From Thiomonas sp. X19 (lineage in GTDB: Bacteria > Pseudomonadota > Gammaproteobacteria > Burkholderiales > Burkholderiaceae_C), in assembly GCF_900089495.1 (NCBI RefSeq), contig NZ_LT605203.1:1666468-1730467 (forward strand): a stretch of DNA of 64,000 bases, written 5' to 3'. The notes under the pieces were generated by a model, which searched no databases, was not told the DNA's origin, and saw only the letters and a program-made list of their open reading frames with translations. Position numbers and translations under genes: made by a program. Of this stretch, positions 21,570-57,232 are shown piece by piece (position 1 is the stretch's first letter; the number at the start of each line of letters is the position of its first letter).

Positions 21570-21900
21570 CGCGACTGGCGACTGGCGACTGGCCACTGGC
21601 CTGGCCCACCTGCTGCACGCCCAAGTTGGGTTGAGAGCAGCCCCCCGAGCGGGATGAGAAAACCCGGGGCGGCCCGACGTTTGCTCTCAAGAAAACGCAG
21701 GGCCGCCCCAAGTTTTCTTGAACCCCACGGGGGGCGGGTTGGGCGCAGCCCGGCCCTGGGGCGCTCATGAGACACCCTGTGTCAACCCTCCGCTGTTTGG
21801 CGCAGGCCTTGCCGCCCGCCGTGCAGTGCGGGATCGTAGGGTTTGCGGTCGACCCATGCGCGCCAGATCACGCGCACCCAGCCACGGGCGGTGCCTGCGC
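21570..21900 (+). other. 331-bp gene-free region with simple repeat and palindromes
   Basis: Just after the ABC transporter stop there is a short tandem GCGACTGGCGACTGGCGACT stretch. The rest contains the palindromic repeat described at 21685-21770. No gene is supported. It separates the rightward ABC gene from the leftward DoxX gene, so a terminator function for the hairpin is plausible. Confidence 0.5.
21685..21770 (+). repeat. Dispersed palindromic repeat, family 2, copy 1
   Basis: The core is a hairpin with stem AAGAAAAC (21689-21696) and GTTTTCTT (21712-21719) and the loop GCAGGGCCGCCCCAA. It is followed by a conserved tail that ends CCCTGGGGCGCTC. The same loop, a covarying stem and the same tail recur at 40943-41030, and a weaker copy lies at 42471-42555. 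Confidence 0.75.
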
Positions 21901-34169: not shown

Positions 34170-34285
34170 GTTCACGCCCTCCACACGGCGTGGGGAGGGT
34201 TGGGGAAGGGAGGGTTGTTGCGCATCGCGGCTCCCCCTCCCGGCCTCCCCCACCAGTGGGGGAGGTGAGAACAGCGCTGCGCGAC
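34170..34285 (+). repeat. Palindromic repeat family 1, copy in the glcD-glcE gap
   Basis: This G+C-rich block includes a hairpin with CCTCCCCCAC (34244-34253) and GTGGGGGAGG (34256-34265), and downstream bases that include GCGCTGCGCGA. The 22-bp hairpin is identical to that at 48761-48782 upstream of mdtA, and related sequence lies inside mdtB and mdtC. Its position between two genes of one operon suggests it is transcribed. Confidence 0.8.
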
Positions 34286-40942: not shown

Positions 40943-41030
40943 CTCTCAAGGAAACGCAGGGCCGCCCCAAGTTTCCTTGACCCCTACGTGGGGCGTGATC
41001 GGCGAGCCGACCCTGGGGGCGCTCAAAGAG
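40943..41030 (+). repeat. Dispersed palindromic repeat, family 2, copy 2
   Basis: Stem AAGGAAAC (40948-40955) and GTTTCCTT (40971-40978) around the loop GCAGGGCCGCCCCAA, the same loop as at 21697-21711. The tail ends ACCCTGGGGGCGCTC. Compared with copy 1, one base pair in the stem has changed on both sides (A-T to G-C). Confidence 0.8.
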
Positions 41031-47097: not shown

Positions 47098-48699
47098 GAG
47101 ACTGTCGGACTTTGCGGTCTTCCGGATGAAGACGCTATCCGAGACAATTGCTGCTGCACAACCGAGAGCCCGAGCCGATGAGCCGCTTCGTCCCTGTTGA
47201 CCGAGACACCGCATATCTGTTGCCACCGTCGGTGGACGAATGGCTGCCCACTGATCACTTGGCGCGCTTCGTGGTCGAAGTCATCGAGCAGCTTGATCTG
47301 GGCGATCTGGCCCGACAGTACGCAGGCCGGGGCTCGGCGGCGCACCATCCGGCGGTGCTGCTGGGCCTGCTGATCTACGGCTACGCCAACGGCGTGCACT
47401 CCAGCCGCAAGATCGAGCGGGCGACCTACGACTCGGTGGCGTTCCGCTTTGTTGCGGCCAATACCCACCCCGATCACGACACGCTGGCGACGTTCCGCCG
47501 CCGCTTCTTGAAGGAGGTGGAGGCACTGTTCGTGCAGGTGCTGGTTCTGGCGCGCGAGATGAAGCTGCTCAAGCTCGGACACATCGCGCTGGATGGCACC
47601 AAGATCGACGCCAACGCCAGCAAGCACAAGGCCTTGTCGTGGGCTCATGCCAACAAGATCGAGGCGCAGCTGCGCCAGGAAGTACAAACGCTGCTGGCGC
47701 TGGCAGAGAACAGCGACCGCGCGACGGTACCCGACGGCATGGATGTGCCGGCGGAGATCGCCCTGCGTGCAGATCGCTTGAGCGCAATCGCGCAGGCCAA
47801 GGCCAAGATCGAGCAGCGCGCCAGCGAACGCCATCAGGTCGAGCAGCAGGAGTACGAGGCCAAGACCGCCAAGCGCCAAGCCCAGCGCGAGGCGGGCAAG
47901 AAGCCGCGCGGCAAGGACCCTGAGCCGCCAGAGGCCGGCCCCCGGAGCAGCGATCAGGTCAACCTCACGGATGAAGAGTCGCGCATCATGCCCGTGTCGG
48001 GTGGGGGCTTCGAGCAAAGCTACAACGCACAAGCCGGCGTGGACATCGCGACGATGATGGTGATCACCCAGCATGTGAGCCAGGCATCCAACGACAAGCG
48101 CGAAGTTGTGCCTACGCTGCAGCAGATCCAAGCGTTACCCGCGGTGCTGGGCGAGGTGCACACGCTCATCACGGACAACGGCTTCTTCAGCCAAGCCAAC
48201 GTGATCGCGTGCAACGACGCGGGTATCGAGCCGCTGCTGGCGCTCAAGCGGGAGTCGCATCACACGCCGGTGATGGGGCGCTTTGCACCCGATGTGCCCG
48301 AGCCCCAGACGACGGATCCGCTCGTGCAGATGGCACACCGCCTGGGCACGCAAGCAGGCCGAGCCCTGTACGGCCTGCGCAAGCAGACAGTGGAGCCGGT
48401 GTTCGGCATCATCAAGCAAGTGATGGGTTGGCGCCAGATGAGCATGCGCGGGCTGGCCAAGGCACAAGGCGAATGGAGCTTGGTGACCATGGCTTGGAAC
48501 ATCAAGCGCATGCACGTCCTGCGAGCCGCGTGAGGGCAATAGTGCGCCCCGACCACGCCAAAACCGAGTCCCCAGGCCGCCCCATGTGCCCTCACAGTGT
48601 CTCGCCAACCATCGAGAGCGTTCGATCAGCGCGCCGCTGTCAAAAAAAACGCGTCGCACTGATCAATCGGATTCGCTCGGGTTCAAGTCCGACAGCCTC
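47098..48699 (+). mobile_element. Complete IS1182-family insertion sequence, 1602 bp, with CTAG target duplication
   Basis: The ends are GAGACTGTCGGACTT (left, 47098-47112) and, reverse-complemented, GAGGCTGTCGGACTT (right, 48685-48699), one mismatch in 15. CTAG flanks it on both sides (47094-47097 and 48700-48703). One intact transposase gene lies inside. The left CTAG contains the stop codon of the adenosyltransferase gene. The near-identical ends and intact gene suggest a recent insertion. Confidence 0.9.
47178..48533 (+). CDS. IS1182-family transposase
   Basis: A 451-residue transposase with an N-terminal DUF772/InsH-like domain (WLPTDHLARFVVEVIEQLDL, VLLGLLIYGYANGVHSSRKI, ANTHPDHDTLATFRRRF). 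The DDE catalytic domain follows: Asp in LGHIALDGTKIDANAS, Asp in TLITDNGFFSQ, Glu in KQTVEPVFGIIKQVMGWRQ. A charged coiled-coil-like insertion of about 80 residues lies between the first and second Asp. ATG 47178 is the start. Confidence 0.94.
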   Translation: MSRFVPVDRDTAYLLPPSVDEWLPTDHLARFVVEVIEQLDLGDLARQYAGRGSAAHHPAVLLGLLIYGYANGVHSSRKIERATYDSVAFRFVAANTHPDHDTLATFRRRFLKEVEALFVQVLVLAREMKLLKLGHIALDGTKIDANASKHKALSWAHANKIEAQLRQEVQTLLALAENSDRATVPDGMDVPAEIALRADRLSAIAQAKAKIEQRASERHQVEQQEYEAKTAKRQAQREAGKKPRGKDPEPPEAGPRSSDQVNLTDEESRIMPVSGGGFEQSYNAQAGVDIATMMVITQHVSQASNDKREVVPTLQQIQALPAVLGEVHTLITDNGFFSQANVIACNDAGIEPLLALKRESHHTPVMGRFAPDVPEPQTTDPLVQMAHRLGTQAGRALYGLRKQTVEPVFGIIKQVMGWRQMSMRGLAKAQGEWSLVTMAWNIKRMHVLRAA

Positions 48700-49191
48700 C
48701 TAGTGAGCTTTCCAGAACAGGCGAGAGACTCGAAGCAGCGCACCGAGCTTTCCCTCCTGGCCTCCCCCACCAGTGGGGGAGGTGAAAGCTGCGCTGCGCG
48801 AAGCTTCTGGATGCCCCTCCTGGCCTCCGCCACCTCGCGGGGGAGGAGCCCGCCCCCTCCCCATGCGTGGGGAGGGTTGGGGAGGGGATGAATTCGGACG
48901 GCCACGGACCGGGGAAACATCAATCGAGTAGGTCCGGCTCTTGCCGCATGGCGTGACCACTTGGCTGGTGGTTTCCTGCCAGCAAAACTTCAACACAAAC
49001 GCCTCACGCGGCGTTCATGCGGCTCGGGCATGATGCGGCCTGTTCACAATGTGGTCTGCACATACCCCCAGGAGGCATGCGGGCCGGGAACGATTGGACA
49101 ATGCGCCAACCGCGCTGCGGTCAGCCGGCCACCATGCCTTGGCCGGCCACCATGCCTTGCTTGTGTCTCGCCTTTCATCCGAACCCTGCCC
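48534..49191 (+). other. 658-bp gene-free region: IS1182 right end, palindromic repeats, mdtA upstream region
   Basis: It contains the right end of the IS (to 48699), the palindromic block at 48745-48890, and about 300 bp before mdtA in which the efflux-operon promoter must lie. A short tandem repeat, GGCCACCATGCCTTG, occurs twice at about 49126-49160. No gene is supported and no regulator gene flanks the operon. Confidence 0.55.
48745..48890 (+). repeat. Palindromic repeat family 1, copy upstream of mdtA
   Basis: Hairpin CCTCCCCCAC (48761-48770) and GTGGGGGAGG (48773-48782), then a 38-bp segment at 48783-48820 that is exactly the reverse complement of 50684-50721 inside mdtB. A second G+C-rich palindrome (CCCCTCCCCATGCGTGGGGAGGG) follows in two parts at about 48860-48885. 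Confidence 0.85.
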
Positions 49192-50589
49192 ATGACCCCA
49201 TCCGGCCCACGCCCCGATCCTGCTCCGACCTCCGTTGCCCGGCCGGCCGGGCGTCGCTGGCCCTGGTTGCTGCCGTTGGCCATCCTGGCGGCAGGAGCCA
49301 TGCTGTGGTGGCGCGTGGGCGATGTGAGCAACACCCAGAAAGGTCCGCCCGGCATGTCCGGCAAGCAGCCACCGCAGCCGGTGACGGCGGCCGTCGCCCG
49401 CGCGCAGCCGTTACCGGTGTGGCTCAGTGCCCTGGGCACGGTGACGCCGCGCAGCCTGGTGAACGTCATGCCGCGCGTGGCGGGCCTGCTGCAAAGCGTG
49501 GATTACAAGCAGGGGCAGATGGTCAGGGCCGGGCAGTTGCTGGCGCAGATCGACCCGCGTCCGTTCCAGATCGCGGTGGAGCAGACGCAAGCCCAGGTCG
49601 AGCAGACCCGGGCGCAACTGAGCGGGGCGCAGAGCGACCTGGTGCGTTATGAAACCCTGCTCAAGCAGGACTCGATTTCCGCGCAGCAGGTGTCGGACCA
49701 GCGCGCCACCGTGGCGCAGTACAAGGCCACGCTCGACGCCAACAAGGCCGCGCTCGACAACGCCAAACTGCAACTCAGCTGGACCCGCATCACCGCCCCG
49801 GTGGCCGGCCTGGCCGGCCTGCGGCCGGTGGATGCGGGCAATATGGTGACCACCTCGGGCGCGGTGGGCGCGGGCAACGGTTCCAGCAGCACCACAGGCG
49901 GCAGCGTGACGCCGATCGCCACCATCGCCCAGGTGCAGCCGGTGGACGTGACCTTCGCCTTGCCGCAGCAGCAGATCGGCGAGGTGGTCGGGCGGTTGCT
50001 GGGTGCCCCGGCAAATCCGCAAGCGGATTTTGTCCCCCAAGGGGGAGGCACACGCCTGGGGCGCCCCGGCACGGCTCGCATGTCCGGCAAGCAGCTCGAA
50101 GCCCAGGCCTGGGACGCGCGCAACACCCGGCTGCTGGCGAGCGGCAAGCTGGTGGCGGCCGACAACCAGATCAACACCGCGACCGGCACGCTCAACCTGC
50201 GCGCCGAGTTCGACAACAAGAACCTGGCGCTGTTTCCCAACCAGTTCGTCAACGTTCGTCTGCTGGTGCGCACCATTCCCGATGCGGTGGTGGTGCCGAC
50301 CACCGCCGTGGCCGTGGGGGCGCCTGGCACCTATGTGTATGTGATCGGCGCTGGCGACAAGGTGATGTTGCGCAAGGTGACGACGGGGGCGACCGACGGC
50401 GACCTGACGCAAATCGTCTCCGGCCTGAAGCCCGGTGAACGGGTCGTCACCGATGGTCTGGACCGCCTGCGCGATGGCCGTGAAGTGAAGGTGGTGCAGG
50501 CGCGCACTGCGGAGGCTTCGCCGACGTCGCAAAAGGGAAAGACAAAGCCGGGCGAGCATGCCAAGGCTGCGGCCAGCGGAGCGCGCTGA
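49192..50589 (+). CDS. mdtA: RND efflux periplasmic adaptor MdtA
   Basis: A 465-residue membrane-fusion protein that links the inner-membrane pump to the outer-membrane channel. An N-terminal membrane anchor ([18 protein letters not shown]) is followed by the lipoyl halves ([20 protein letters not shown] and [20 protein letters not shown]), an alpha-hairpin and beta-barrel domains. At about residues 271-293 it has an in-frame insertion made of a palindromic repeat (50005-50071), between [12 protein letters not shown] and [19 protein letters not shown], which are adjacent-type segments in E. coli MdtA. ATG 49192 fits the family start. Confidence 0.93.
50005..50071 (+). repeat. Palindromic insertion within mdtA
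   Basis: Two small hairpins, AAATCCGC-AA-GCGGATTT (50013-50030) and TCCCCC-AA-GGGGGA (50033-50046), are enclosed by direct copies of GCCCCGGCA at 50005-50013 and 50063-50071. The segment is translated and keeps the mdtA frame open. Confidence 0.75.
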
Positions 50590-50591
50590 GC

Positions 50592-53500
50592 ATGAGCGGG
50601 CAGCAGACCGACGACTCCCCACCCCAGCCCTCATCGCAGGCGGGGAGGGAGCCAACCCCTCCCACACAGCGCGGGGAAGGCGGGGAGGGGCATCCAGAAG
50701 CTTCGCGCAGCGCAGCTTTCACCTCCCCCACTGGAGGGGGAGGCCGGGAGGGGGGGGCTGGCGCCGACCGCCCCAGTCCGTCGCGGCTGTTCATCCTGCG
50801 GCCCATCGCCACCACGCTGCTGATGATCGCGGTGCTGGTGGCCGGTTTCGTCGGCTACAAGCTGCTGCCGCAGGCGGCGCTGCCGGAGGTGGACTACCCC
50901 ACCATCCAGGTCACCACCCTCTACCCCGGGGCCAGCCCGAATGTGATGACATCCTCCGTCACCGCGCCGCTTGAGCAGCAGTTCGGGCAGATGCCGGGGC
51001 TGGCGCAAATGTGGTCGGTGAGCTCCGGCGGGGCGTCGGTCATCACCCTGCGTTTCGATTTGTCGCTGTCGCTCGACGTGGCCGAGCAGGAGGTGCAGGC
51101 GGCGATCAACGCCGCCGGCAGCCTGCTGCCCACCGACCTGCCGCAGCCGCCCATCTACGCCAAGGTCAACCCGGCGGACGCGCCCGTCATCACCCTGGGG
51201 CTGACCTCGGACTCGCTGCCCCTCACCACGCTCTACGACCTGGCCGACACGCGCTTGAGCCAGAAGCTCTCGCAGGTCTCGGGCGTGGGCCTGGTCACGC
51301 TGTCCGGCGGCCACAAGCCTGCCGTGCGCGTCACGGTCAACGCGCAGGCCCTGGCGGCGCTGGGCTTGAGCCTGGACAGCATTCGCACCGCCATCACCGG
51401 GGCCAACGTCAACAGCCCCAAGGGCAGCATCAGCGGAAGCCGGCAATCCTTCACCATCGACGCCAACGACCAGTTGCAGTCGCCCGAGCAATACCGGCAG
51501 ATGATCATCGCCTACAACAACGGCGCGCCGGTGCGCCTGGGCGATGTCGCCACCATCGACACCGGCCCCGAGAACGCCTGGCAGGCGGCCCTGGTCAATG
51601 GCAAACCTGGCATCGTCATCAACGTGCAGCGCCAGCCTGGCGCCAACGTCATCGCCGTGGTCGACAGCATTCAGCAGCTGCTGCCCAGCCTGCAGCAGCA
51701 ACTGCCCGCCGCGGCGCGGCTCTCGGTGCTGTCGGACCGCACCGTCACCATTCGCGCCGCCATCAGCGACGTCAAGTTCGAACTCCTGCTCGCCGTGGCC
51801 CTGGTGGTGCTGGTCATCTTCGTCTTCTTGCGCAGCGCGCGCGCCACCTTCATTCCCGCCACGGCCGTGCCGCTGGCGCTGGTGGGAACCTTCGGCGCGA
51901 TGTATCTGTTCGGCTTTTCCATCAACACCCTCACGCTCATGGCGCTGACGATTGCCACCGGCTTCGTGGTGGACGACGCCATCGTCATGATCGAGAACAT
52001 CTCCCGCTACATCGAGGCCGGCGAGCCGCCGCTGCAAGCGGCGCTCAAGGGCGCGGCGCAGATCGGCTTCACCATCATCTCGCTCACCTTCTCGCTCATC
52101 GCCGTGCTCATCCCGCTGCTGTTCATGGGCGATGTGGTGGGGCGGCTGTTCCGCGAATTCGCCATCACCCTGGCGGTGGCCATCGTCATTTCGGCGGCGG
52201 TGTCGCTCACCTTCACCCCCATGCTGTCGGCGCGGCTGCTGCGCCATGTGCCCGAGCACGAACAGGGCCGCCTGTTCCGCGCCACCGGCCATGCCTTCGA
52301 GCGCCTGACCGAGGGCTACACCCGGGCGCTCGGCTGGGTGCTGCGCCACCAGCCGCTGGTGCTGCTGGCGGCGCTGGCGACGCTGGTGCTCACGGTGTTT
52401 CTCTACATCGCCATTCCCAAGGGCTTCTTTCCGGTGCAGGACACCGGCCTGATTCAGGCCACCACCGTGGCGCCGCAGGACGTGTCGTTCGCCGCGATGA
52501 GCCAGCGGCAACAGACGCTGGTCGACGCGCTGCTGCAAGACCCGGCGGTGGCCAGTGTGTCTTCGGTGGTCGGCATCGACGGCACCAACACGACGATGAA
52601 CACCGGGCGCCTGCTCATCAGCCTCAAGCCCTTGAGCGCACGCGTGCTGCGGGTGCAGCCGGTCATTTCTCGGCTCGACGCGCGCGCCGCGAAGGTCGAA
52701 GGCATACGCGCCTTCCTGCAGCCGGTGCAGGACCTGACCATCGACGACATCGCCAGCCGCTATCCCTACCAGTTCAGCCTCTCGGCCACCAGCCAGGCCG
52801 AGCTTTCCAGCGCCAACGCGGCGCTGATGGCCAAGCTCAAGACCCTGCCGCAGCTCGCCGGCGTCACCAGCGACCTGCAGGACCAGGGCCTGCAGGCCTA
52901 TGTGGACGTGGACCGCAGCGCCGCCTCGCGTCTGGGCATCACCATGAGCGCGGTGGATAGCGCGCTCTACAGCGCCTTCGGCCAGCGCCTGGTGTCCACC
53001 ATCTTCACCCAGTCGGCGCAGTACCGCGTGGTGCTGGGGGTCAGCACGACCGGCGGTGGGGCGCAGAATCCCCACGCTTCAACGGCATCGCCTTCGCTGC
53101 TGTCCGAGGGGGTGCCTGCCGCCTTGGGGCGGCCCGGCGGTGGCGGGGGGCTGGCGGCGTTCGACAACATCTACCTCGCCAGCAGCAGCGGGCGGCCGGT
53201 GCCGCTGTCGGCCATCGCCCATGTCGAGCAACGCGCCACGCCGCTGGCGGTGGATCATCTCGGCCAGTTCCCGGCGGCGCTCATTTCCTTCCAGCTCGCC
53301 CCTGGCGCCTCGCTCGGCGCGGCGGTCGATGCCATTCAGCAGGTGGCCGCGGACGCCGCGCTGCCGCCTTCGGTGGTCATCGCCTTCCAGGGCGCGGCCA
53401 GCGCCTTCCAGGCGGCGCTCTCCAACCAGCTCTGGCTGCTGCTGGCGGCGGTGGCCACCATGTACATCGTGCTGGGCGTGCTGTACGAGAGCTACATCCA

Positions 53501-54068
53501 CCCCATCACCATTTTGTCCACGCTGCCATCGGCCGGCATCGGCGCCTTGCTGGCGCTGATGGGCACGGGGCACAACCTCACCGTCATCGCCATCATCGGC
53601 ATCGTCCTGCTCATCGGCATCGTGCAGAAGAACGCCATCCTGATGGTGGACTTCGCCCTCGACGCCCAGCGCCACCAGGGGCTTGCGCCCGAGGCCGCCA
53701 TGCTGCAAGCCGCGCGCCTGCGCTTGCGCCCGATTTTGATGACGACGTTCGCCGCGCTGTTCGGCGCCGTGCCGCTGGTGGTGGGCGGCGGCATGGGCGC
53801 CGAGCTGCGCCAGCCGCTGGGCATCACCATGGTGGGCGGGCTGCTGCTGTCGCAGCTGCTCACGCTGTTCACCACGCCCGTCATTTATCTCGCCTTCGAC
53901 CGCCTGGCCACGCGCGCCGCGGCATGGCGGACGCGCACCTTCGGTTCCGGTCCGGGGGGCGGGCGGAACCTCCCTCTCCCAGCCGCCCCCACAGGTGGGG
54001 GCGGCGCCGCGCGATCTTCAGGCGTGCCCCCGCCGACATCCTCCACGGACGGGGAGGGGAAGCCGTGA
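50592..54068 (+). CDS. mdtB: RND multidrug efflux permease MdtB, with repeat-derived insertions
   Basis: A 1158-residue proton-driven RND pump subunit, about 118 residues longer than E. coli MdtB. The normal protein starts at about residue 65 ([15 protein letters not shown]) and includes [20 protein letters not shown] and [17 protein letters not shown], with 12 membrane helices and two large periplasmic loops. Three extra segments come from G+C-rich palindromes: residues about 12-57, about 820-857 in the second periplasmic loop, and the tail from about 1117. Residues 2-65 contain no Met, Val, Leu or Ile, so no alternative start can bypass the first. The stop overlaps mdtC by 4 bp. Confidence 0.93.
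50627..50756 (+). repeat. Palindromic repeat family 1, copy translated as the MdtB N-terminus
   Basis: It has a CGGGGAGGG/CCCCTCCC palindrome at 50641-50664. A 38-bp segment at 50684-50721 is the exact reverse complement of 48783-48820. A CCTCCCCC/GGGGGAGG hairpin follows at about 50722-50742. The peptide is rich in Gly, Pro, Ser and Arg. Confidence 0.85.
53050..53165 (+). repeat. G+C-rich insertion in the second periplasmic loop of MdtB
   Basis: It encodes a Gly/Pro/Ser-rich segment between YRVVLGVS and [18 protein letters not shown], where E. coli MdtB has a short acidic turn. The end, GCCTTGGGGCGGCCCGGCGG, resembles the end of the mdtA insertion (GCCTGGGGCGCCCCGGCAC) and the tail of repeat family 2. 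Confidence 0.6.
53964..54062 (+). repeat. Palindromic repeat family 1-like copy at the MdtB C-terminus
   Basis: The block includes CGCCCCCAC-AG-GTGGGGGCG (about 53983-54003) and ends in GACGGGGAGGGGAAG just before the mdtC start. It is translated as a Pro/Gly/Ser/Thr-rich tail. It also forms the ribosome-binding context of mdtC, GGGGAGGGGAAG, 4-15 bases before the GTG start. Confidence 0.6.
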
Positions 54069-57000
54069 ATCTTTCCGCCCCCTTCATTCGTCGCCCGGTG
54101 GGCACCACGTTGCTGGCGCTGGCGGTGCTGCTGGCGGGCGTCATGGCCTTTCGCCTGCTGCCGGTGGCGCCGCTGCCGCAGGTGGATTTTCCGACCATCA
54201 CGGTGCAGGCCAATATGGCCGGCGCCAGCCCGGCGGTGATGGCCGCCACGGTGGCCACGCCGCTGGAGCGCAGCCTGGGGACGATTGCCGGCATTTCGCA
54301 AATGACCTCCAGCAGCACGCAGGGGTCCAGCCGCATCATTCTTCAGTTCGATCTGAGCAAGGACATCAACAGCGCCGCGCGCCAGGTGCAGGCCGCCATC
54401 AACGCCGCGCGGCCGCTGCTGCCCACGGGGCTCACCGGCAACCCGACCTACCGCAAGGTGAACCCGGCGGATGCGCCGATCATGATCCTCGCGCTCACCT
54501 CCAAGAGCCTGACGCGCGGGCAGATGTACGACGCCGCCTCCACCATCCTGGCGCAGAAGATCTCGCAGGTCGCCGGCATCGGCTCGGTCACCGTGGGCGG
54601 CTCCGCGCTGCCGGCGGTGCGGGTGGAACTGGACCTGCCGCGCATCAACGGCATGGGCCTGGGGCTGGAGCAGATTCGCCAGGCCATCGCCAGCGCCAAT
54701 GTGGACACGCCGAAAGGCGCGGTGGACAGCGCGGACCGCCGCTGGCAGGTGGGCGCCAACGACCAGATGACCACGCCGGCGCAGTACCGGCGCATCGTCG
54801 TGGGCTACAAGAACGGCGCGCCCATCCGGCTGGATGAAGTGGCGCAGGTCCGGGAAGGGCTGCAGAACGACCAGCACATGGGCCTGGCGAACGGCGAGCC
54901 GGCGGTGCTGCTCATCATTTTTCGCCAGCCCGGGGCCAACATCATCAGCGCCGTGGAAGGCGTGAAGGCGGCGCTGCCGCAGCTCGAAGCCTCCATTCCG
55001 GCAGGCATCGACGTGCGCATCATGTCCGACCGTACCTCCACCATCCGCGCCTCGCTGCAAGAGGTGGAGAACACCCTGCTGCTCGCCGTCATGCTGGTCA
55101 TCGGCGTGGTCTGGCTGTTCCTGCGCGACTGGCGCGCCACCCTCATTCCGGCACTGGCCGTGCCGCTGTCGCTGGTGGGTACCTTCGCCGCCATGTGGCT
55201 GCTGGGCTACAGCCTCGACAACCTGTCGCTGATGGCGCTGATCGTCGCCACCGGCTTCGTCGTGGACGACGCCATCGTCGTGCTCGAAAACATCATGCGC
55301 CATGTCGAGGCCGGCATGGCGCCGCTGGACGCGGCGCTCAAGGGTGCGCGCGAAGTGGGCTTCACCGTGCTGTCCATGAGCCTGTCGCTGGTGGCCGTGT
55401 TCCTGCCGGTGCTGTTCATGGGCGGCATCGTCGGCCGGCTGTTCCACGAGTTCGCCGTCACGCTGTCGGTGGCCATCGGCATTTCGCTGCTGGTCTCCCT
55501 CACCGTCACGCCCATGCTCGCGTCGCGCTGGCTGCGCGCGAAACCCCTCCCCGCCCCAACCCTCCCCATCAGTGGGGAGGGAGTGACTTCACCTCCCCCA
55601 CCCGTGGGGGAGGCCGGGAGGGGGAGTGTTGCCCGCGTGTCGCGTCTGGAGCGCGTGTGGAACGCCATTCACGGCGGCTACGCCCGCAGCCTGCGCGGGG
55701 CGCTGGCGCATCCCACGCTCATGCTGCTGCTGTTCTTCGCCACCATCGGTCTGAGCGTGTATCTCTACGCCATCGTCCCCAAGGGTTTTTTCCCGACGCA
55801 GGACACCGGCTTGTTGGTCGGTTCGGTGCAGGCCGATCAGTCCATTTCCTTTCAGGGCATGAGCAAGAAGCTGGAGCAGATCGTCGCCATCGTGCGCAAG
55901 AACGAAGGCGTGCAGAACGTGCTGGCGTTCACCGGCGGGAGCACCGCCAACAGCGGCTTCATGTTCATGCAGCTCAAGCCGCTGGACCAGCGCCGGGGGG
56001 TGCAGACCATCATCGCGCAATTGCGCAAGGCGCTCTCGAGCGTGCCGGGGGCGCAGACCTTCATGTTTCCGGTGCAGGACATTCGCGCCGGCGGCCGGCC
56101 CTCGGCGGCGCTGTACGAGTACACCCTGCAGGCCTCCGACCTGGACACCCTGCGCACCTGGGAGCCCAAGGTGCTGGCGGCGTTCAAGCGCATTCCCGGC
56201 ATGAACGATGTCAACACCGACCAGCAGGCCAGCGGCCTGCAGCTCTCCCTGGTGCTCGACCGCGCGGCCGCGGCGCGCTACGGCATTTCCATAGCCACCA
56301 TCGACCAGACCCTGAACGACGCCTTCGGCCAGCGCCTGGTCTCCACCATCTACGCCCCGCTCAACCAGTACCGCGTGGTGATGGAGGCGGCGCAGCAGTA
56401 CCAGCAAAGCGCCTCGGCGCTGCAAGATCTTTTCCTGGTGGGCAGCAAGGGCCAGCGCGTGCCGCTCGCGGCCCTGGCGCATTACGAGCTGACGAACACT
56501 CCGCTGGCGGTGAACCACCAGGGGCTGTTCGTCTCGGCCACCCTTTCCTTCAATCTCGACAAGGGCATTGCACTCGGGCAGATGCAGGGCAAGATCGACC
56601 AGGCCATGGCCGAGATCGGCCTGCCGTCCGAGGTTCACGGCGGGTTCCAGGGCACCGCCAAGCTGTTCTCCGACACGCTGAAAAACCAGCCGCTGTTCAT
56701 CATGGCGGCCATCTTCGCCATCTACATCGTGCTCGGCATCCTGTACGAAAGCACGCTGCACCCGCTCACCATTCTCTCCACCCTGCCCCCCGCGGGCGTG
56801 GGCGCGGTGCTGGCGCTTTTGATCACCCACACCGAGTTTTCCATCATCGCCCTGATCGGCGTGTTCCTGCTCATCGGCATCGTCAAAAAGAACGCCATCC
56901 TGATGGTGGACTTCGCCCTGCAGGCCGAGCGCGAGCATGGCGCCGGACCGCGCGACGCCATCTTCCAGGCTGCCACCCTGCGCCTGCGCCCCATCCTCAT

Positions 57001-57232
57001 GACCACGCTGGCGGCGCTGTTCACCGCGCTGCCGCTGGCCTTCATCAGCGGCAACGGCGCCGAGCTGCGCCAGCCGCTGGGCATCTCCATCGCCGGCGGG
57101 CTCGTCGTCAGCCAGGCGCTGACGCTCTACACCACCCCGGTCATCTACCTCGAACTCGACCGCCTGCGGCAATGGACCCTGCGCAAATTCGGCCGCAGCG
57201 GCAATCCGGTTCCGCTCGACACTCCGGCCTGA
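54065..57232 (+). CDS. mdtC: RND multidrug efflux permease MdtC, with repeat-derived cytoplasmic insertion
   Basis: A 1055-residue RND pump subunit that forms a hetero-trimer with MdtB. Landmarks are [60 protein letters not shown] and [20 protein letters not shown]. Residues about 494-521 ([20 protein letters not shown] and on) are a palindromic repeat inserted in the cytoplasmic loop between helices 6 and 7, just after [11 protein letters not shown]. The start is GTG 54065, which overlaps the mdtB stop. Confidence 0.94.
55545..55626 (+). repeat. Palindromic repeat family 1, copy translated inside MdtC
   Basis: Two hairpins in tandem: CCCTCCCC (55560-55567) with GGGGAGGG (55574-55581), and CCTCCCCCA (55592-55600) with TGGGGGAGG (55605-55613). 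The segment keeps the frame and lies in a cytoplasmic loop where an insertion should be tolerated. Confidence 0.85.

Follow-up and report, generated by a model that had tools for sequence, protein, structure and literature searches.

An in-frame palindromic repeat at the 5' end of mdtB in Thiomonas, most likely translated as a tail of the pump subunit

Palindromic repeats lying in frame within genes were first known from obligate intracellular Rickettsia, in which Rickettsia palindromic elements (RPEs) occur in frame in unrelated genes, one guanylate kinase of this kind having been shown to be translated and active (available text of PMC2229807 and PMC10969869); one conserved peptide per family is given as a defining RPE feature in the available text of PMC10969869. 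They were then listed in other genomes, where intragenic repetitive extragenic palindromic (REP) sequences of the GTAG/CGTC superfamilies are described from several bacteria together with a warning on the translation of N-terminal ones (available text of PMC3733652, which does not mention Thiomonas in its main text). Paired elements of the REP doublet forming hairpin (REPIN) type are defined in PMC3116915, as far as its available text goes. For Thiomonas sp. 3As, repeated regions of 7.62% are reported in the available text of PMC2829063, the main text of which holds no word beginning 'palindrom', and no report of coding REPs in Thiomonas was found in the literature searched, most of it represented without full text. 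The present analysis concerns a 64-kb stretch of DNA from Thiomonas sp. X19 (positions 1666468-1730467 of contig C3 in genome G000, which comprises 4.67 Mb in 3 contigs; hereafter the window, with other positions counted within it), where mdtB, encoding a permease subunit of the resistance-nodulation-division (RND) type, carries a palindromic repeat at its 5' end.

The repeat at the 5' end of mdtB

The gene, the repeat, and the copies most similar to it are as follows.

50592-54068, + strand: mdtB, RND permease subunit, an open reading frame (ORF) of 1158 aa with three repeat- or insertion-derived segments
50616-50756, + strand: two-hairpin palindromic repeat (Y unit, linker, X unit), in frame, MdtB residues about 9-55
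50684-50734, + strand: 51-nt exact reverse complement of 48770-48820
50722-50743, + strand: X hairpin of the mdtB copy, CCTCCCCC-loop-GGGGGAGG, 8 of 8 pairs
48752-48888, - strand: copy of the element in the intergenic stretch ahead of mdtA
34233-34284, - strand: single-unit copy elsewhere in the window, 92% identical to the mdtB copy over 52 nt

The initial annotation had derived MdtB residues of about 12-57 from a palindromic repeat, and the repeat was indeed located there, as a 137-nt two-hairpin element at residues about 9-54. The mdtB and intergenic copies are identical at 111 of 137 positions in an ungapped alignment (50616-50752 versus 48752-48888; 81%), and a BLAST search of the repeat against its own genome recovered the intergenic copy at E = 3.9e-30 among 49 matches at E <= 10. 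The inverted match previously noted between them, to 48783-48820, is indeed exact, but its stated length of 38 bp falls short, a further 13 nt extending it to the 51 nt listed above. In the mdtB doublet the X hairpin is intact and the Y hairpin degenerate, the latter not matching the family pattern. Read in frame, the copy would place ~46 residues, many of them Pro, Gly, Ser, or Glu, before the first membrane helix; in a profile comparison, the MdtB/MuxB models match the mdtB product from residue 62 onward (MdtB, the best of 13 models, at 1569.5 bits against a curated cut-off of 1584).

The claim that no alternative start lies within codons 2-65 of mdtB was borne out, since these codons encode no Met, Val, Leu, or Ile and hence include no ATG, GTG, TTG, or CTG; the earliest start-like codon after the ATG is a CTG at codon 66, and the first internal Met is M78. 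The motif S-R-x-F-I-L-R-P at residues 64-71 is invariant across 27 aligned proteins. The mdtB ATG keeps its position next to the mdtA stop in relatives whether or not they carry the repeat (the two codons overlap in G023), and the sole early start-like codon in the tail of G001 is a GTG at codon 3.

Thirty mdtB loci, including that of the window, were read, with the N-terminus readable in 23 (some of these 23 being cut by contig ends; the anchor motif was not found in loci L051, L053, and L056-L060). The repeat was recognized in 2 of the 22 other readable loci, those of the sister species G023 and G001, both of which have a 62-codon tail; the three tails can be aligned across 199 nt without gaps, none has an in-frame stop, and the insert predates the separation of these species. 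Four relatives in which no doublet was recognized have tails of 25 codons (G021, G006, and G003) or 37 codons (G011). The same N-terminal peptide in repeat-free relatives, which the initial annotation had named as grounds for refuting its reading, was not seen in G021, G006, and G003, the 25 codons of which are unrelated. Because the sister species keep the same tail without gap or stop, and because the repeat-free relatives keep the same start, the repeat is in all likelihood translated as a tail of the pump, a reading that draws on sequence comparison. Between the two options originally offered, a repeat made as part of the pump and a non-standard start, the kept ATG and the lack of any other standard start in the gene itself favor the former. 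An assembly error, also considered as the source of the tail, is judged unlikely because the tail recurs in the relatives, which are separate genomes.

In pairwise comparisons among the three species, 28-35 of the 140 positions of the element differ (20-25% of the DNA). The ratio of nonsynonymous to synonymous change (dN/dS) in repeat codons 9-59 was 0.66 (95% limits 0.34-1.43), 0.35 (0.17-0.73), and 0.57 (0.25-1.44), and in mdtB codons 63-762 it was 0.15-0.16 in the same three comparisons. Synonymous divergence (dS) was ~3x higher in the repeat (0.40, 0.53, and 0.32) than in codons 63-762 (0.13, 0.16, and 0.11), and this faster synonymous change, together with the 51-nt identity to the intergenic copy, would fit exchange or copying between repeat copies. 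In six relatives, a search of ~1300-1400 nt upstream of mdtA (only 537 nt in G003) did not find the intergenic copy.

The hairpin family and its other in-frame copies

The repeat family consists of two hairpin subtypes, X (CCTCCCCCAC-loop-GTGGGGGAGG with a CCCCCTCCCGG-type foot) and Y (CCTCCCCA-loop-TGGGGAGG with a CCCCACCCCAG-type foot). The perfect-hairpin pattern occurs at 48 places in the X19 genome and its reversed-pattern control at none, which gives the many short palindromes per genome typical of REPs and REPINs; an earlier pattern with the wrong loop length was discarded after finding 2 places, equal to its control. The one-sided foot and the inverted doublets of REPs and REPINs are likewise present: the foot is on one side in 46 of the 48 hairpins and on neither side in 2 (by a rule written on these same 48 sequences), and 17 of the 31 clusters obtained by joining hairpins with gaps <200 nt hold two hairpins. 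The tag of the GTAG/CGTC REP superfamilies does not characterize the family, as GTAG/CTAC is found within 18 nt of 0 of the 48 hairpins and CGTC/GACG of 5. Six of the 48 hairpins lie inside the window, 5 of them in 48761-55613, a local clustering that was noticed after the fact. Across the genus, the pattern was found in 9 of 28 genomes, with 48 hairpins in X19, 17 in G001, 9 in G011, 6 each in G023 and G020, 4 each in G021 and G003, and 1 each in G006 and G041; the counts for relatives follow the hairpin pattern only, loops and feet aside, and may span more than one family. The reversed control occurs twice in G007 and once in G005. With regard to a possible mover, the X19 genome holds a single match to a PF01797 (Y1-type) transposase (L213; G000:C3:4274206-4274541), and the nearest cluster of the family is ~4.2 kb away from it. 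A different hairpin, outside the studied family, lies near this transposase.

A genome-wide search for the repeat inside coding frames found further in-frame copies, and the phenomenon is not confined to mdtB. Based on 27 stretches taken around repeat sites, in which genes were called by codon usage with a purpose-built model, 5 of the 31 clusters are in frame where relatives have a shorter gene (mdtB, mdtC, putA, a transglutaminase-DUF2126 gene, and a membrane-protein gene). The putA copy is present in X19, G023, and G001 and absent from G021, G003, and G006 (3 of 6 aligned, a distant match in G011 being left out); the doublet or a diverged form of it lies within the aldehyde dehydrogenase part in the three species (L189, L194, and L195), with an extra unit in G001. 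The transglutaminase-DUF2126 copy is present in X19 and G023 and absent from G001 and G011 (2 of 4 in an alignment that excludes G003, G006, and G021, where the frame motif was not found). The membrane protein, of 708 residues and without a Pfam match, has a copy in X19, diverged copies in G001 and G023, and none in G041 (3 of 4; 5 of 8 genomes searched gave no match). A sixth cluster falls at residue 774 of a polyketide synthase (PKS), between a Pfam domain that ends at 589 and another that starts at 837, and a diverged copy with no perfect hairpin (E 1.6e-4) lies in a linker of an NADH-dehydrogenase-51K-like protein, the insert being full in X19, shorter in G023 and G001, and absent from five others aligned. 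The coding copies are read in different frames and in both orientations, an observation that speaks against selection for a single peptide. All other clusters are intergenic, undecided, or located at starts that may be mis-called. Copies situated at or near the N-terminus in genes for a molybdopterin oxidoreductase, aminotransferase, histidine kinase, FAD oxidoreductase, CusF, UreF, and dehydrogenase and in a 175-aa Pfam-less frame were kept out of the coding count, since each of these could use a later start, and copies in a glycosyltransferase-3N gene and at the C-terminus of an ABC protein were classed as undecided.

The operon has the gene order mdtA-mdtB-mdtC and contains several further in-frame insertions.

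49192-50589, + strand: mdtA (start set by alignment with relatives), stop 2 nt ahead of the mdtB ATG
54065-57232, + strand: mdtC, GTG start overlapping the mdtB stop
49999-50079, + strand: 27-codon in-frame insertion in mdtA, common to X19, G023, and G001
53052-53138, + strand: 29-codon in-frame insertion in mdtB, absent from six relatives aligned, sister species included
53946-54065, + strand: C-terminal extension of mdtB, with a diverged X-type hairpin seen by eye at 53982-54005
55541-55625, + strand: Y+X doublet in frame in an mdtC loop, with a shorter form in G023 and G001 and neither form in four further relatives

The mdtA insertion is absent from G011, G021, G006, and G003 (seven species aligned). 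Searched as a repeat, it gave one weak other match in the genome; short palindromes are visible by eye, but it is not called palindromic because of the single weak match and a folding z of +1.1, worse than most shuffles. Neither is this claimed for the mid-mdtB insertion, which folds no better than shuffles (z -0.5) and at the place of which protein P0027 has a different insertion. The C-terminal extension of mdtB also occurs in G023 and G001, with its X/Y-type repeat in shorter or diverged form, and folds little better than shuffles (z -0.85). Other features of the window include an 18-bp tandem duplication (49124-49159) immediately ahead of the mdtA start, a 461-aa ORF (47148-48533) directly upstream of the intergenic repeat copy that presumably resembles an insertion-sequence transposase, and another two-copy repeat (21684-21745 and 40943-41004; 87% alike) with an inverted-looking part.

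Competing explanations for the mdtB repeat

The family most likely represents a non-autonomous REP-like and REPIN-like element, copies of which persist within genes only where reading frame and protein fold allow it. In outline, a REP-like or REPIN-like doublet of two short hairpins in opposite orientation, each with a one-sided C-rich foot, would have spread through the genomes of one Thiomonas subclade, and in an ancestor shared by at least three species one copy would have inserted close behind the start codon of mdtB, at the 5' end of the gene. Given the length and frame of this copy, mdtB would have stayed open, ribosomes would read the copy as a ~46-residue tail, and the tail would since have been kept open under weak constraint. 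Other copies may have been kept likewise in mdtC, putA, the DUF2126 gene, the membrane-protein gene, and probably the PKS, in loops, linkers, and ends; presumably, insertions survive where a Pro/Gly/Ser-rich segment is tolerated (e.g., tails, linkers, and loops). We infer that the element was mobile and that its peptide is harmless.

Several observations weigh against a translated and merely tolerated tail. For the repeat, the upper dN/dS limit is as high as 1.4 in two of the three comparisons, and 43% of neutral simulations at 25% divergence remain open in one lineage, so that the lack of stops alone is weak evidence; G023 has GTG at mdtB codons 3 and 25, and a later start could in principle be used there. 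The mdtB copy folds slightly better than shuffles (z -1.6), and its X hairpin keeps 7 of 8 pairs in each of G023 and G001, one of them via a pair-keeping double change, which is better than a pure passenger would predict. No family hairpin occurs in the 3.3-kb locus of the Y1 transposase, and a linked REP-associated tyrosine transposase (RAYT) was not found in the X19 genome. The AlphaFold model of MdtB is poor overall (mean predicted local distance difference test score, pLDDT, of 54), and its low-confidence tails therefore prove little. The open simulations and the GTG at codon 25 would suit an untranslated leader, with initiation at a non-standard codon near residue 62-66 and a frame open by chance in G+C-rich DNA. 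The stop-poverty of such DNA points the same way: on average 5.00 of 6 frames are open in REP windows (72% G+C on average), compared with 4.52 for random windows and 5.28 for those of >=75% G+C, and high G+C is enough to account for the open frames of the repeat (a special stop-poverty of the element was rejected, its value lying between those of the two controls). The available text of PMC3733652 also cautions that, for some other species, many of the REPs at N-termini may be non-coding. A leader is nonetheless very improbable given the absence of standard starts from codons 2-65 of the X19 gene, the start ATG kept in repeat-free relatives, the gapless 199 nt in three species, the invariant S-R-x-F-I-L-R-P in 27 proteins, and dN/dS values <1, clearly so in one of the three comparisons.

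The kept X stem with its compensatory change, and the presence of copies both at the mdtB start and at the mdtB-mdtC junction, could instead reflect selection of the hairpin as an mRNA or DNA element (e.g., a brake on translation between mdtA and mdtB) with the peptide as a by-product. Compared with shuffles, the mdtC doublet folds at z -3.5 and the intergenic copy at z -3.6. The whole mdtB element folds only 1.2-1.6 standard deviations better than shuffles in X19, G023, and G001, its Y hairpin in X19 is degenerate and off-pattern, and orthologues without the repeat exist, all of which makes such a role unlikely. A further alternative, that the tail has been co-opted as a flexible cytosolic N-terminal segment functioning in the pump, at a site re-used in the genus, draws on a wider set of 75 proteins recovered with MdtB residues 1-90 (42 viewed as sequence, all 75 scanned for motifs). 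The closest of the named matches to the X19 MdtB belong to Thiomonas. The anchor motif is present in 74 of the 75 and a repeat-like motif, by a rule written after inspecting the sequences, in 15. In a quick tree of 72 proteins (three were dropped, one for lack of the anchor and two short ones, of which one has the repeat-like motif), the repeat-like motif occurs in 14 of the 20 members of one clade and in 0 of the 52 others, and the tree requires at least 5 changes, 4 of which well-supported branches make unavoidable; the corresponding figure for shuffles is 13.1, and none of 500 was as low. The tails of P0005 and P0006 (source name of the latter, Thiomonas arsenitoxydans) differ by a 21-residue in-frame tandem repeat, and the dN/dS point estimates are <1. 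Co-option is still improbable, as close relatives lack the tail, the peptides vary in sequence and length, the motif rule is post hoc, and the clade has a support of only 87%. It is similarly rather improbable that the mdtB 5' end is a repeated landing or retention site across a Thiomonas clade, its probably disordered tail growing and shrinking by whole codons, with one tandem duplication, and now a working pump part; if so, a free-living bacterium would have acquired a protein linker from mobile DNA. A translated tail of repeat origin, kept because the protein tolerates it, thus remains the favored explanation.

Comparison with known palindromic repeats

The likeness to RPEs drawn in the initial annotation holds for the mode of working and not for the lineage. 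As with RPEs in the available texts, palindromes of ~105-150 bp are fused in frame in unrelated conserved genes and tolerated by the protein. Unlike RPEs, the Thiomonas repeat belongs to another lineage, is built of hairpin doublets with feet, and is read in several frames and both orientations, so that the one conserved peptide per family described in the available text of PMC10969869 is not seen. Like REPINs, as defined in the available text of PMC3116915, the family forms inverted hairpin doublets (in 17 of 31 Thiomonas clusters), whereas its halves are two subtypes, X and Y, and no RAYT with the repeat beside it was found in the X19 genome. The GTAG/CGTC REPs in the available text of PMC3733652 differ in their tags, with GTAG/CTAC lacking within 18 nt of all 48 Thiomonas hairpins and CGTC/GACG present near 5, and, compared with the cases given there, the Thiomonas events are dated by orthologues with and without the insert.

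At several genes of a single genus, some orthologues carry the insert and others lack it, and one case has no other standard start. Since cultured strains exist in this genus, it can now be tested directly whether inserts of this kind are translated, and whether they are neutral or useful. According to the available text of PMC3733652, in-frame palindromes had already been published from outside Rickettsia, and Thiomonas adds a new case that is clearly dated by comparison.
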